From: a virus
Length of the DNA stretch: 41,047 nucleotides
Strand: one strand, 5' to 3'
IMG/VR virus record: IMGVR_UViG_3300045747_000080
Coordinates: 1 to 41,047 of that record
Below are positions 7,737-35,732 of the stretch, one piece after another. Under the pieces are notes generated by a model that saw only the letters and a program-made list of their open reading frames with translations, ran no database searches and was not told the origin of the DNA. The translations under genes and the position numbers were made by a program. Numbering within the stretch: the first letter of the stretch is position 1; each line of letters opens with the position of its first letter.

Positions 7737-8522
7737 TTAAGAACCTCCCCCAATATTAGCCGATGGATTGTTCATCGACCCGCCGTAAGCATTGCTGTTC
7801 GAGCCTGACCCGACCGATGGAGTACCACCACCATATCCAGACATCAAATAACCCAGCGATGGCGCAGCGCCAGCAACCGCATTAGCCGCACCCAACTGCC
7901 CACCAGCAAGCGATGCACCTTGAGCAGCTTGTGACTGTGCGACACCTGTTCCTAGGGTCGTTCCGTTGTTGCCAACATTCGCCGCAGCATTCTGACCTAA
8001 TCCAGCAATGCCAGACAATCTGCCGAAAATGTTGTTTTGCGTGGTGTTGTAGCGGTTGAAAGCATTCTGATAACCCGTTGACGCCATGCTCTGATTGAAG
8101 CCCATCAAATCCTTCAGCGCAGAGCCGGATAAGGCACCCTGAGCTGGTGTGTCAGCATTTCGTACTGCCTGGCCACCTTGCTGTAGCTGGAAGCCATATC
8201 CAGGGTCTAGGTTGTTTGTGAAGTCAGTCGGCGAGAATCCTTTAGTGAACTGGCCTTGCGTGACTCCGCTATCCCCAGCAGACCCACCCATTCCCATCCC
8301 GTACATCGCAGCATTAAGCGCCTGCCCACCAGCGTCCATGTACGGCTTCTGGTTAGCCTGAAGCTTGTTGAACATGTCCATTTGCGTCTGAGACGCACGG
8401 CCCTGGGCGTCAGCTTGCGTGCTTGCTGCTTGCTGTTGTCCATTAGCTCCAATAAGAGCACCAGCGACGTTTCCGATTAACGCCCCACCGATACCCGTGA
8501 TTGCTGATGCTACCCAAACCAT
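7737..8522 (-). CDS. DNA-ejection (transfer) protein, P22 gp7-like class
   Basis: The 261-residue product starts with a Gly/Ala-rich hydrophobic segment (AITGIGGALIGNVAGALIGA). It then has the pattern typical of phage DNA-transfer proteins: KPYMDAGGQALNAAMYG, a DPGYGFQLQQGGQAVRNAD block, SGSALKDLMGFNQ, and YQNAFNRYNTTQNN before a Gly-rich tail. These proteins are stored in the head and form part of the conduit for genome entry. Its 5' end overlaps the cupin gene by 13 bases, and two similar-function genes follow. Confidence 0.78.
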   Translation of the reverse strand: MVWVASAITGIGGALIGNVAGALIGANGQQQAASTQADAQGRASQTQMDMFNKLQANQKPYMDAGGQALNAAMYGMGMGGSAGDSGVTQGQFTKGFSPTDFTNNLDPGYGFQLQQGGQAVRNADTPAQGALSGSALKDLMGFNQSMASTGYQNAFNRYNTTQNNIFGRLSGIAGLGQNAAANVGNNGTTLGTGVAQSQAAQGASLAGGQLGAANAVAGAAPSLGYLMSGYGGGTPSVGSGSNSNAYGGSMNNPSANIGGGS

Positions 8523-8962
8523 GTTAAGCTCCTTGGCCGATTGTGTGCATCAAACAGCGCCAGTTGATCAGTCTCTACTAGGTCTTCTTCAATTTCGTCC
8601 AAGTCTTCACCTTCAGTTCGATTGCGATGCAGATTCATGTAGATTGAGTCTTCCAGTGCGAGAATGGCGCGTTTTGATCCTGGCTGGGCAACAAATACGT
8701 CGCCAGCTTCAAAGATCACGGCTTTGTCGTCACCATGCGAGACTTGAATTCTCCCCTTGGCAACAATGAAAAAGTGTTCCCGCTTGTGGACTTTTCCAAC
8801 TACGAGGCATCCTGCGGGTTGATAGAGGGAGCGGACATACATGCCATCAGCGAAGTGATGTTGCGTATTCTCAGATAGGTCAATCTGATGCATCCCGCTC
8901 ATGATCGATTGGAGTTTCTCAATCGATTGATGAATATCGTGGGATTCGTCAATATCTTGCAT
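8510..8962 (-). CDS. Cupin-fold protein in the ejection-protein cluster
   Basis: The 150-residue protein contains a cupin core at about residues 40-112: KVHKREHFFIVAKGRIQVSH (His59, His63), then FEAGDVFVAQPG and IYMNLH. The two histidines and the GDVF turn fit a metal-binding or degenerate cupin barrel. The rest is acidic (EGEDLDEIEEDLVETD). Its role in a phage is not established; being first in the ejection-protein transcription unit, it may be a virion component or an assembly factor. A promoter (9026-9055) and terminator lie directly upstream. Confidence 0.75.
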   Translation of the reverse strand: MQDIDESHDIHQSIEKLQSIMSGMHQIDLSENTQHHFADGMYVRSLYQPAGCLVVGKVHKREHFFIVAKGRIQVSHGDDKAVIFEAGDVFVAQPGSKRAILALEDSIYMNLHRNRTEGEDLDEIEEDLVETDQLALFDAHNRPRSLTWFG

Positions 8963-9058: not shown

Positions 9059-9102
9059 TTTAAAAAATCAATCCCCCATAGCTACAGCAAGGTGATATGG
9101 GG
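9059..9102 (-). terminator. Rho-independent terminator, leftward
   Basis: Reading the minus strand, CCCCATA (9102-9096) pairs perfectly with TATGGGG (9080-9074) around a 15-base loop, and the stem is followed by GATTGATTTTTT. On the plus strand no T run follows, so the orientation is clear. It would end the transcript that begins near 9435, or head/tail read-through. Confidence 0.65.
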
Positions 9103-9323
9103 TAATCACTGTCTCCATCTGAATCCTGTCTGTCAGGTAATCAAACCAAGTGCCAAGGAGGGATAGATTCCACTCGGCTTTGCTGCTAACGCCTGATCAC
9201 AATCAGCAAAACCTTTAACCAATCGGTCTATCAACGTTGATTCGTAGCGGGTTAGTTGCCCGTTCCGGTGTTTCCTGGGTGCATTCCATGCAGAACCGTT
9301 TGCTGTGTCATGTTCGCCCTGAA

Positions 9324-9431
9324 ACAAAACGCAAAAAAGCCTTTACTACTGCGCTCCAGTGGTCGCAACACTGGTTCCCTTTCGGGATAACGCATGAGTA
9401 AAGGCTCGTTTTGTCTTGTGTTGCGACCACT
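9324..9431 (-). ncRNA. Predicted structured RNA with interleaved inverted repeats (pseudoknot)
   Basis: Arm A, AGTGGTCGCAACAC (9431-9418), is perfectly complementary to A' (9371-9358). Arm B, AGCCTTTACT (9406-9397), pairs with B' (9347-9338). Flanking bases extend B by ACAAAACG (9414-9407) against CGTTTTGT (9331-9324), leaving a six-base bulge. The order A-B-A'-B' is that of an H-type pseudoknot or of two mutually exclusive folds. Between B and A' lies UCCC-GAAA-GGGA, a hairpin with a GNRA tetraloop only in the minus-strand RNA, so that strand is the likely product. An extended -10 lies immediately upstream. A 19-codon frame (ATG 9311, CAGGG before it) follows. Confidence 0.6.
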
Positions 9432-9441
9432 TGACAAGTGA

Positions 9442-9450
9442 ACTATACCA
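9442..9450 (-). promoter_or_regulatory. Extended -10 promoter element ahead of structured RNA
   Basis: The minus strand reads TGG TATAGT, a TGn extended -10. No good -35 is present, which is usual for this promoter type. The expected start is near 9435, a few bases before arm A of the structured RNA. It lies just downstream of the 9454-9828 gene end. Confidence 0.45.
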
Positions 9451-9453
9451 CAC

Positions 9454-9828
9454 TCAAACGCAGCCTAGTTCGCCTTCTGCGGAAAATGTCAGTCCAGCGG
9501 CACTTGCACCACCTACCAGGAAATCAGCAACATCAAGGCGAACCATGCCATACCAATCCACATAACTATTTGCGGGAACAGATGTACCAAACCCCATGAA
9601 TGAGTTCGCTGAAGATGCGGTAGCACCAGTTGCACCAATGCACAGAGTGAAAGTAACGGCGCTTGCAGTGACATTTGTGATCCTGATATGGCGCAGCAAA
9701 GCGTAAGTCGCTGCATTTGTCCCGGCAAGTCCGGTACCACCAGCCAAAGTCGGCGGATTGATGATGTTGGTCGTTAGGACGTTGGTTAATGCTACGGGAC
9801 CGAAACGCAAAGTTTTATTTGATGCCAT
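9454..9828 (-). CDS. Hypothetical virion protein (beta-rich, 124 aa)
   Basis: The product is a small Thr/Ala/Gly-rich beta protein (LRHIRITNVTASAVTFTLCI, then FMGFGTSVPANSYVDWYG). The pattern is like small capsid decoration or baseplate-type proteins that measure a local property with surrounding positional loops. TGGAG stands before the ATG. It is the last gene of the head/tail transcription unit before the intergenic region at 8963-9453. No specific family is assigned. Confidence 0.6.
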   Translation of the reverse strand: MASNKTLRFGPVALTNVLTTNIINPPTLAGGTGLAGTNAATYALLRHIRITNVTASAVTFTLCIGATGATASSANSFMGFGTSVPANSYVDWYGMVRLDVADFLVGGASAAGLTFSAEGELGCV

Positions 9829-10476: not shown

Positions 10477-12084
10477 TCACCGACCTGCGCTGCTGAATGC
10501 GCAAAGAGTCACGCCAACAATATCGCGTGAAACAGGGTCGATGACCTCTATGTCGATCACGTTATCACGGCCAAATCCAAGCTTACGCCACATCGTTCTA
10601 ATCCTGTTTTGCGCCATTTTCCCAATTGGAGCAAACCAGCGATTGCCGAATGTCTTCCCTCCGTCCCGGGAGATAGCGAGTCCTGCTTGTGGATCTGACC
10701 CTAGACCACTTGCGTTGCCAACACCAGCCAAGAAATCGATCTGAAGCGAAGCCATGAATACACGCCCACGCTGTCCCTTATCCCAGATGTGAGGTGAACG
10801 ACGTTTACTCAGCAGTGGCCAGCCTGCGTCAGTGAAAGAGGTTCGCGTCAGCCAGTGCAATGCACCGCACTGATAGTCTCCAACGATCCGCATCCCTTGA
10901 AAATTCATATAGCAGTTCGACCTATGACGATGGAATGCCTGAGCATATGGATCGTATGAAAGCCGCTTGTGAAGTACGTTTGTTTGTGCATCAAATACCC
11001 AGGTCACATCAGCAGTCGGGAAAGTCAAAACGTAGAATTCGTGCGTGTCCTCTTGATAGGTGTATCCGATGGCGTCTGAGGTGATTGGATAGGTCTTCAG
11101 TTCATTCGCAAACGCCGGAGTGACAACCACATCCGTAGAAAATCCCTTGGTCCGAATGATGACGTTGTCACCACGCTCTGACCGGCCAAACCAGATCAAT
11201 CCATCCTGGCCTTCGAAATTGAACCGGGCAACGCTGTGTGCGGCTTTGCAACCGGATTGCATCATTGTGCCGACAAGTCTTTGAAACGGGAAATAAGGTC
11301 CGCCCGCGTTGTACCAAACCTCTGTCGTCTGCTCACCCAACAACCACAACTGCTCTTTGTTTTCAAAGATCGTCACCAGGTTATCAGGTGCGCCATCCTT
11401 GAGAGCATAGAACGACCCATTGAACACGTTGGAATATGGCTGAGAAACGGTGTAGAAAGCCTGCGAGTTGGGCTTATTGAATACGAACCATCCATCAACC
11501 ATCACGACACGATCAGCACCTAGAAATGCAGGATCAGTGATCTTAGAAAACACTCCGGTAAGCGTGTTGTACCAATATCCATTGGGACCATCGACGATGC
11601 ACACATTGCCCACGACAGTACCTGTAACGCCGAATCCAACACCGTTATCAGCGGCCATCGAAACAGGCCCGGTGCTTGTCGCAAGCGTGCCGACTGAAGT
11701 TATCGCCAGAGTCGGGAAAGCACCCGGTGTTGCAGCTACCGAAACAGTCACCAGATAACACGTATTCCCAATGACTGCTAAAGCTGTTTGACTACCAGGA
11801 AGGACAAACAGTCCGCGTACTGGCAGACTTGCGCCGGCGTAGGGTTGTGGCCATTGCGTGGTCGATGAATCAAAACCCGGCGCACCACCACCAGCCGCAG
11901 CAACAAGCTGGATCAACCCAGGCGCACCCAACAAGCCTACGACTTCTTTCGGATTCTGTTGGTCGACTTCAGGATACCAATTCACGCACACCTGAGCGTT
12001 TTGACCAGGGTTAGGGTCAGTCGCTTCACCTCCAACAAACCCCCAATCTCCGAACAATTGAAGTGGAGAGCTATTTTCAATCAT
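10477..12084 (-). CDS. Packaged-DNA stabilisation / tail protein, P22 gp10-like
   Basis: The 535-residue protein opens with CVNWYPEVDQQNPKEVVG-type sequence and continues through beta-propeller-like repeats (FGRSERGDNVIIRTKGFS, DGWFVFNKPNSQAFYTVSQP). It ends in SRDGGKTFGNRWFAPIGKMA and RTMWRKLGFGRDNVIDIEV. These blocks are characteristic of the P22 gp10 family, which closes the portal channel after packaging and forms the tail hub to which spikes attach. The length is close to P22 gp10 (472) with modest insertions. GAGG stands 7 bases before the ATG. An HNH gene separates it from the gp4-like adaptor. Confidence 0.88.
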   Translation of the reverse strand: MIENSSPLQLFGDWGFVGGEATDPNPGQNAQVCVNWYPEVDQQNPKEVVGLLGAPGLIQLVAAAGGGAPGFDSSTTQWPQPYAGASLPVRGLFVLPGSQTALAVIGNTCYLVTVSVAATPGAFPTLAITSVGTLATSTGPVSMAADNGVGFGVTGTVVGNVCIVDGPNGYWYNTLTGVFSKITDPAFLGADRVVMVDGWFVFNKPNSQAFYTVSQPYSNVFNGSFYALKDGAPDNLVTIFENKEQLWLLGEQTTEVWYNAGGPYFPFQRLVGTMMQSGCKAAHSVARFNFEGQDGLIWFGRSERGDNVIIRTKGFSTDVVVTPAFANELKTYPITSDAIGYTYQEDTHEFYVLTFPTADVTWVFDAQTNVLHKRLSYDPYAQAFHRHRSNCYMNFQGMRIVGDYQCGALHWLTRTSFTDAGWPLLSKRRSPHIWDKGQRGRVFMASLQIDFLAGVGNASGLGSDPQAGLAISRDGGKTFGNRWFAPIGKMAQNRIRTMWRKLGFGRDNVIDIEVIDPVSRDIVGVTLCAFSSAGR

Positions 12085-34976: not shown

Positions 34977-35732
34977 ATGAATGCACTCAGTTTGTTTTCT
35001 GGAATTGGCGGGCTAGACATTGCCGCCGAAAGCGCCGGGTTTAAGACCGTGGCCTTTTGCGAGCGCGATAAATACTGTCAGTCAGTGCTCAAAAAGCACT
35101 GGCCAAACACAAGGATTTTTGATGACGTTAGAACTATCGACACCGCAGCATTGCCACGAATTGACGTTGTTTTCGGCGGCTACCCCTGCCAACCATTTAG
35201 CCAAGCCGGGCGCAAACGCGCTGAAGCTGACGAGCGCCACCTGTGGCCCGCAATGCGCCGGGTTGTGCAAGAGTTGCGACCCACTTGGTTGGTTGGAGAA
35301 AACGTTAAGGGCCACATTACCCGTGGCCTCGATGGCGTCATTGATGACCTGGAAGACGACGGCTACGCCTGGAGGGCGTTCTGTCTCCCAGCTCTTGCCG
35401 TTGCGGCGCGCCATTTTAGAGAGCGGGTATTTATTGTGGCGCACTCCAAATGCCTACGTGATCTACCCAAAGTCAAACGTCAAGAAACTGACTGGCCGCA
35501 CGCCGAAAGACCCGCAGGTAGGGCTGGCGGATCAACTTGGTGGAAGGCCGAACCCGGAGTGGGTCGAGTGGCTGATGGGGTACCAAGCCAAATGGACAGA
35601 CTTAAAACCCTCGGAAACGCAGTAGTGCCTGAACTGGCTTACCAGATATTTGCGGCGATTGCCGAGACGTATAACGCCGAATTGTGCGGCGGCACGTCCG
35701 CCACGGATGCCGTGTTAAACGGCAAAACTTAA
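34977..35732 (+). CDS. DNA cytosine-C5 methyltransferase
   Basis: The 251-residue enzyme shows motif I FSGIGGLD (7-14), motif IV YPCQPFSQAG (69-78) with catalytic Cys71, motif VI GENVKG (108-113), motif VIII FRERVFIVA (147-155) and motif X LKTLGNAVVP (209-218). It is short; the target-recognition part between VIII and X is only about 55 residues. In the +1 frame the same DNA (to 35625) encodes GGRPNPEWVEWLMGYQAKWT and TDLKPSETQ, also typical of phage C5-methyltransferase C-termini. ATG 34977 is preferred over a start 24 bases earlier. It may protect phage DNA from host restriction. Confidence 0.88.
   Translation: MNALSLFSGIGGLDIAAESAGFKTVAFCERDKYCQSVLKKHWPNTRIFDDVRTIDTAALPRIDVVFGGYPCQPFSQAGRKRAEADERHLWPAMRRVVQELRPTWLVGENVKGHITRGLDGVIDDLEDDGYAWRAFCLPALAVAARHFRERVFIVAHSKCLRDLPKVKRQETDWPHAERPAGRAGGSTWWKAEPGVGRVADGVPSQMDRLKTLGNAVVPELAYQIFAAIAETYNAELCGGTSATDAVLNGKT

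Follow-up and report, generated by a model that had tools for sequence, protein, structure and literature searches.

The pRNA of phage phi29 has a core of about 120 nt with a three-way junction and with two hairpin loops that are complementary to each other and drift in sequence from one phage to another. These loops pair between molecules, and the phages that encode pRNA use the gp16 ATPase instead of TerS/TerL. Betaproteobacteria-1 (RF02932), an orphan phage sRNA, is said to have been described by Weinberg et al. in 2017. Independent phage genes equipped with their own promoters (morons) are common. GOLLD and ROOL are structured RNAs of phages and prophages; their function is unknown, they have covarying kissing loops, and cryo-EM has demonstrated that they oligomerize through loops (PMC12286853). 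The pT181 attenuator and the lambda 6S/tR' late leader are promoter-proximal RNAs that end in a terminator-like stem.

The whole stretch of DNA analyzed here ("the window", 41,047 nt) is a 41-kb contig of an uncultured tailed phage that is P22-like. It encodes a portal, the head-closure protein Hc3, and a gp7-like ejection protein, and it also contains terminase (including the large subunit), NinG, and Bet/RecE recombination genes. On its minus strand, an RNA domain of ca. 112 nt (the "K domain", 9437-9326) is flanked by a gene of 124 aa, whose end is at 9454, and by one that is cupin/tail-adhesin-like, whose start is at 8962. The latter gene (8510-8962), which is the next after the RNA, matches PHROG short tail fiber/adhesin families and Pfam Cupin_2; in another contig (L002), its relative directly follows the head-closure and small tail genes, and the RNA is absent there. 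The initial annotation had described two interleaved arms at this locus, in the order A-B-A'-B', on a transcript carrying no convincing gene. The latter point was borne out: down to ca. 9060 there is no recognizable gene, and the small ORFs at 9133-9327 and 9252-9437 had no match in Pfam or PHROG. When the 4227 Rfam models were applied, none reached its gathering score in the K domain or in the noncoding region 3' to it (the "body"), and no tRNA was found in the window.

Like GOLLD and ROOL, the RNAs studied here are structured phage RNAs with covarying kissing loops. GOLLD and ROOL, however, are far larger (many GOLLD RNAs exceed 800 nt) and often reside near tRNA islands; further, GOLLD has a conserved 3' region and a variable 5' region, the reverse of the arrangement in K-domain RNAs. 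With neither an Rfam match nor a tRNA in the window, the locus was not assigned to either class. The phi29 pRNA is a phage RNA of like size that shares the three-way junction and the two drifting, complementary loops, but here one loop (K, in the 5' hairpin P1) is outside of the junction, and the phages have terminases. The locus was thus not classed as a pRNA, given the position of K and the terminase large subunit encoded in the window. The promoter-proximal position and the terminator-like stem recall pT181 and lambda 6S/tR', except that what directly follows is another structured RNA, not a coding operon. Neither an antisense partner nor an antiterminator was identified for the K-domain RNA.

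Eighteen distinct members of the family were assembled, i.e. the window and 17 in other uncultured phages. The first IMG/VR searches employed the 14-mer of arm A and the two-arm pattern with the loop sequence fixed, and they found L094, L124, L156 (with near-copies L139 and L155), L158, L171, and L178. Loop-free patterns (GTCAAGTG-N7-CAY-NN-GACA and one based on P2, the B/B' stem) returned L190, L194, L238, L239, L240, L241, L242, and L244, and the P2-based pattern yielded L258 in GTDB. A scan that used downstream-body sequence only led independently to the K domains of L280 and L283/L284. Matches L185-L189, L179, L180, and L182-L184 were rejected as chance-like. Except for L258, the members are uncultured viral contigs, several of which are short. 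There was one copy on one strand per record, the exception being a second, weak match in the record of L171 (G013).

No homologue was found among INPHARED phages or, with the L171 sequence as the query, among PLSDB plasmids. The exact loop pattern had no matches in 257 Gb of GTDB genomes; the loop-free pattern had 15 there, of which only L258 was real. This locus (CAIUOC010000024.1) is on a phage-like contig that was binned as Candidatus Saccharibacteria and has VRR-NUC-like, DUF669-like, and large-terminase-like ORFs; its RNA is close to those of L240/L241/L283. The covariance model R2 had no match among 369 genomes from a single bacterial class (a search that had no positive control), and in 380 genomes of the phylum of L258 it detected only that locus's own phage-like contig. 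In 80 contigs with a related tail protein, the RNA was absent from the stretches examined; its occurrence is therefore irregular even where the tail genes of the phages are related. Overall, the K domain has a patchy distribution in phages, and bacterial genomes almost entirely lack it.

Sixteen sequences were aligned structurally by fitting them to a covariance model, a procedure that leans towards nested structure and not towards kissing pairs. Compensatory changes are evident at 33 of the 40 base pairs, and 90.6% of the cells are paired, compared to 73.2% in shuffled alignments. None of 500 shuffles reached any of the measures, and every slid control collapsed. Regarding the interleaved repeats of the initial annotation, an inverted-repeat search located both, at 9355-9371/9418-9434 (A; 94% identity over 17 nt, with 14 nt perfect) and at 9333-9353/9391-9411 (B). 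The assertion that they were not due to chance was upheld by a folding z of -5.3 (0 of 200 shuffles were as good), and the proposed search for covariation in related phage genomes revealed the same architecture with compensatory changes. The observation therefore holds, and it is stronger than first claimed.

Five nested helices (P1, P2, P3, P4, and P5) make up the fold. The 5' hairpin P1, UUGUC-AA-GUG[GUCGCAA]CAC-AA-GACAA (9411-9437, minus strand, as are all features below), has covarying pairs in both its first and second helices. Arm B and its partner form a conserved stem, but only the inner 10 bp of it are conserved; these constitute P2, whose 5' strand (AGCCUUUACU, 9397-9406) and 3' strand (AGUAAAGGCU, 9338-9347) covary, with compensatory changes at 8 of 10 pairs. 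The outer AAAACG/CGUUUU is particular to the window, and the "six-base bulge" assigned to this arm is actually the U-run that directly follows the stem. Above P2 are a three-way junction and a second helix that closes it, P3, which had been missed. Its strands, UGCGUU (9389-9394) and AGCGCA (9350-9355), also covary (compensatory changes at 6 of 7 aligned pairs). Within the junction, the small hairpin P4 (UCCC-GAAA-GGGA, 9376-9387) had been described as a GNRA hairpin; the stem is conserved, varying among CCC/GGG, GCC/GGC, and GGG/CCC, with 66% of cells pairing in the alignment as made, but most relatives have a loop other than GNRA (e.g. UUCAAU). The last hairpin, P5 (CCAGUG[UUGCGAC]CACUGG, 9356-9374), has a stem that is 100% paired, with compensatory changes at 3 of 4 aligned pairs. 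Because this fold is maintained with compensation and is common to otherwise different phage RNAs, it represents a real, previously undescribed RNA domain.

The 7-nt loop of P1 (K, GUCGCAA, 9421-9427) is complementary to that of P5 (K', UUGCGAC, 9362-9368), and the two pair in all members. The K/K' pairs were not in the model used for aligning the sequences; in the structural alignment, all seven had changed on both sides, and 100% of the scored cells were paired. The loops are 6-7 nt and co-vary across about a dozen sequence types. The P1 loops are GUCGCAA, CUGACC, UAGAGG, UGGGG, and UGUAGGG and, newly obtained with their complements from the loop-free and body-only scans, GUACCAG, CUCGACC, GCGCAAU, GUUGCAU, CUCGCAC, UAUGCG, and CGGCAUC. 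The complement of each is located 59-67 nt downstream, and the Watson-Crick complementarity at the contact amounts to 7-14 nt per member. Two hairpin loops that are complementary and covary, with compensation at all seven pairs, signify a kissing interaction, either within one molecule or between two. The K domain is absent from Rfam, and covariation attests to both its secondary structure and a tertiary kissing contact. The apparent invariance of GUCGCAA was in part a search bias that the loop-free scans removed; since this loop was the commonest even among members from the first of the loop-free patterns (GTCAAGTG-N7-CAY-NN-GACA), it is a preferred sequence and not the product of search bias alone.

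The stems of P5 vary without matching changes beside K. The conserved contact is therefore the 7-bp loop-loop kiss, and a long A:A' duplex was ruled out as the conserved state. Arms A and A' are present and complementary as first noted, but they are not a plain 14-bp arm; they are the loops of the separately covarying hairpins P1 and P5. The notion of interleaved arms as long duplexes was thus not supported.

Upstream of P1, the sequence contains an extended -10 hexamer, TATAGT (9442-9447, with TGG at 9450-9448). Its position is fixed in relatives, which supports the earlier identification: in 13 of 16 members, a distance of 4-5 nt separates P1 from the end of the best -10-like hexamer, although three of those 13 (L124, L178, and L239) have poor hexamer scores. 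Members often have a recognizable -35; the window has no good one. Judging from the location of the -10, the RNA should begin at P1. Immediately after P2 is the U-run (9333-9338), which is intrinsic-terminator-like and conserved in relatives. At least five uninterrupted T's are present in 16 of 18 members, the exceptions being L178 (three T's) and L242 (TTTATT). The locus thus has the conserved, GC-containing stem and ensuing U-run of an intrinsic-terminator attenuator, with termination itself being a prediction. A consensus scanner reported no promoter or terminator on the minus strand here; its hexamer and loop limits exclude both.

Following the U-run is a repeat of the P3 5' strand, termed C' (UGCGUU, 9328-9333), that constitutes a second partner for the P3 3' strand. 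In a permutation test on 14 thinned members, the pairs of this strand with its own C' (the C/C' pairing) were stronger than permuted ones (p about 1e-4). A separate comparison had 96% of them paired, and single-sequence folding chose this alternative in four members. A covarying repeat of the P3 5' strand after the U-run was also noted in L094, L194, L124, L158, L171, L190, L238, and L283. Because C' both repeats the P3 5' strand and covaries with it, three segments are connected by one common pairing partner. C' is synthesized only once the U-run has been passed, which rules it out as a classical antiterminator, and no element that would compete before polymerase reaches the U-run was found, C' being the sole covarying alternative partner detected. 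The suggestion of an attenuator with two exclusive folds is therefore possible insofar as the P3 3' strand has a second partner, but not in its classical form; C' may instead refold the read-through RNA. All told, the interpretation in the initial annotation is partly supported.

The body of the window (9075-9327) is the noncoding 3' region of a presumed RNA of ca. 370 nt. It resembles the body of L238 over its length and, in part, that of L239. A terminator had been proposed at 9102-9059; a terminator-like hairpin (CCCCAUA..UAUGGGG followed by UUUUUU) is indeed in the window sequence and is a possible end of the long RNA, but no counterpart was found in the relative from L238. The K domain and the next gene are separated in most members by about 250-450 noncoding bases, sometimes more. 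The bodies are mosaic: that of L190 has an L124-like start and an L094-like remainder. For one body type (five sequences), 19 of 53 predicted pairs are compensated. RF02932, whose Rfam model (120 positions) spans the body only and not the K domain, scored above its gathering threshold 3' of the K domain in L156, L241, L258, L280, L283, and L284; the window body did not match it. At seven loci (L279, L281, L282, L285, L286, L287, and L288), RF02932 occurs with no detectable K domain, and hence an RF02932 body does not need one. That the bodies differ and recombine argues that the K domain is an exchangeable 5' module. The segment would thus be the 5' module of a mosaic phage RNA whose length is presumed to be ca. 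370 nt, and the original estimate of about 370 bases is supported in the sense of a two-domain RNA with a variable body. A class of phage RNAs composed of a common 5' domain and exchangeable bodies would be much like phage proteins in its mosaicism, and in several phages the orphan Betaproteobacteria-1 would make up no more than the 3' portion of a larger unit.

In phages, RF02932 or similar stretches come after a primase gene in at least some cases. For example, positions 11907-12045 of the cultured Acidovorax phage AP1 (OM049504), in a gap after the primase gene, are similar to an RF02932 locus with no detectable K domain. The conserved sequence seems to run past the 3' end of the RF02932 model (GGCUCCG.. 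to ..GUCCACC).

The K domain is found in diverse settings. It is between terminase and portal in L238, L239, and L156; before the small terminase gene in L124 and L178; after Rz in L190; before Erf in L194; beside a gene of the early/nin region that encodes an HNH protein or a methyltransferase in L094 and L240; after a VRR-NUC-like gene in L258; and within the tail/ejection region in the window. Such varied neighbors fit an independent RNA gene and do not fit the leader of one particular gene. Together with the promoter-like -10, the covarying fold, and the lack of a conserved ORF, they support the earlier proposal of a stand-alone structured RNA. Defense models were compared to ten neighboring proteins, and the single match was the methyltransferase in L240.

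The mechanism that we consider most likely, albeit tentatively, is that of a self-closing 5' domain with a leaky terminator that heads a longer structured RNA. Transcription would start within a few bases of P1, and the RNA would fold in order: P1, then the long stem (P2, an internal loop, and P3), and then the three-way junction with P4 and P5. The P1 loop would kiss the P5 loop; because the stack of P1, kiss, and P5 approximates the length of the P2 + P3 stem, self-closure of a single molecule is plausible. P2 and the U-run would act as an intrinsic terminator of incomplete strength. Part of the transcripts would stop at the U-run, resulting in an RNA of ca. 110 nt, and those that read through would continue into the structured body, resulting in the ca. 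370-nt RNA; any specific activity would be carried by the body. Against the terminator, L178 has only three U's following P2, and the loop that P2 closes is large and contains several helices, which is not the form of a compact terminator. If the C/C' pairing is real, it favors another fold for the read-through RNA.

Oligomerization through the loops is the main rival to this self-closing domain. K of one RNA would kiss K' of the next, producing dimers, rings, or cages as in GOLLD, ROOL, and phi29 pRNA. Complementarity that is kept while the loop sequence drifts is expected for either geometry, and in ROOL, a kissing loop known from covariation was proved intermolecular by cryo-EM (PMC12286853). 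The location of several members between terminase and portal or just before the small terminase gene also favors it. However, the helix lengths and the short P1-P2 linker permit an intramolecular kiss, GOLLD and ROOL are far larger RNAs, and the terminases of these phages are of the ordinary kind; we therefore regard intermolecular kissing as possible but rather unlikely. The drifting yet complementary loop variants make the two geometries distinguishable by mutation and compensation.

It is improbable that the RNA is a cis-acting leader controlling the next protein gene through attenuation. The U-run after P2 and the two alternative partners of the P3 3' strand are consistent with such a role, but the next gene lies at a distance of hundreds of bases, is not the same in all members (portal, Erf, terminase, and others), and is sometimes on the other strand; moreover, the bodies are structured, and one of them is a known sRNA family. 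Quite improbable, too, is a trans-acting antisense sRNA that would target RNAs of the host or of rival phages, with one of the loops, K or K', as its seed. Its appeal derives from the exposed 7-nt loops of variable sequence and from the prevalence of morons, yet both loops change together and are thus constrained to pair with each other; further, the loop 9-mers recur just once elsewhere in the window (GTTGCGACC at 35273), which is about the chance expectation. It is very doubtful, although conceivable, that the K domain is an oligomerization module common to a mosaic family of phage RNAs, with drifting loops through which the RNA of each phage recognizes its own kind only. The assembled RNA would then participate, next to terminase and portal, in packaging or in the assembly of the virion; if true, this would add a second system of RNA-assisted assembly to that of phi29 pRNA. 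Finally, a DNA-level element (an operator pair or recombination site) that mimics RNA structure, as might be suspected from the imperfect palindromic half site TG-N7-CA in both loops, is strongly disfavored by the compensation in all helices, including those with no shared sequence, and by the fixed -10 and U-run, which denote a single transcribed orientation.

A scan of the retrieved loci for T-runs preceded by any two hairpins whose 7-nt loops are complementary brought up little beyond the K-domain family. Two otherwise unrelated phage contigs, L181 (1663-1765, minus strand) and L157 (250-352, plus strand), each contain a promoter-like sequence, a hairpin with a GUCGCAA loop, and, 53-65 nt downstream, a terminator hairpin with a UUGCGAC loop. 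These elements are possible minimal or convergent relatives of the K domain.
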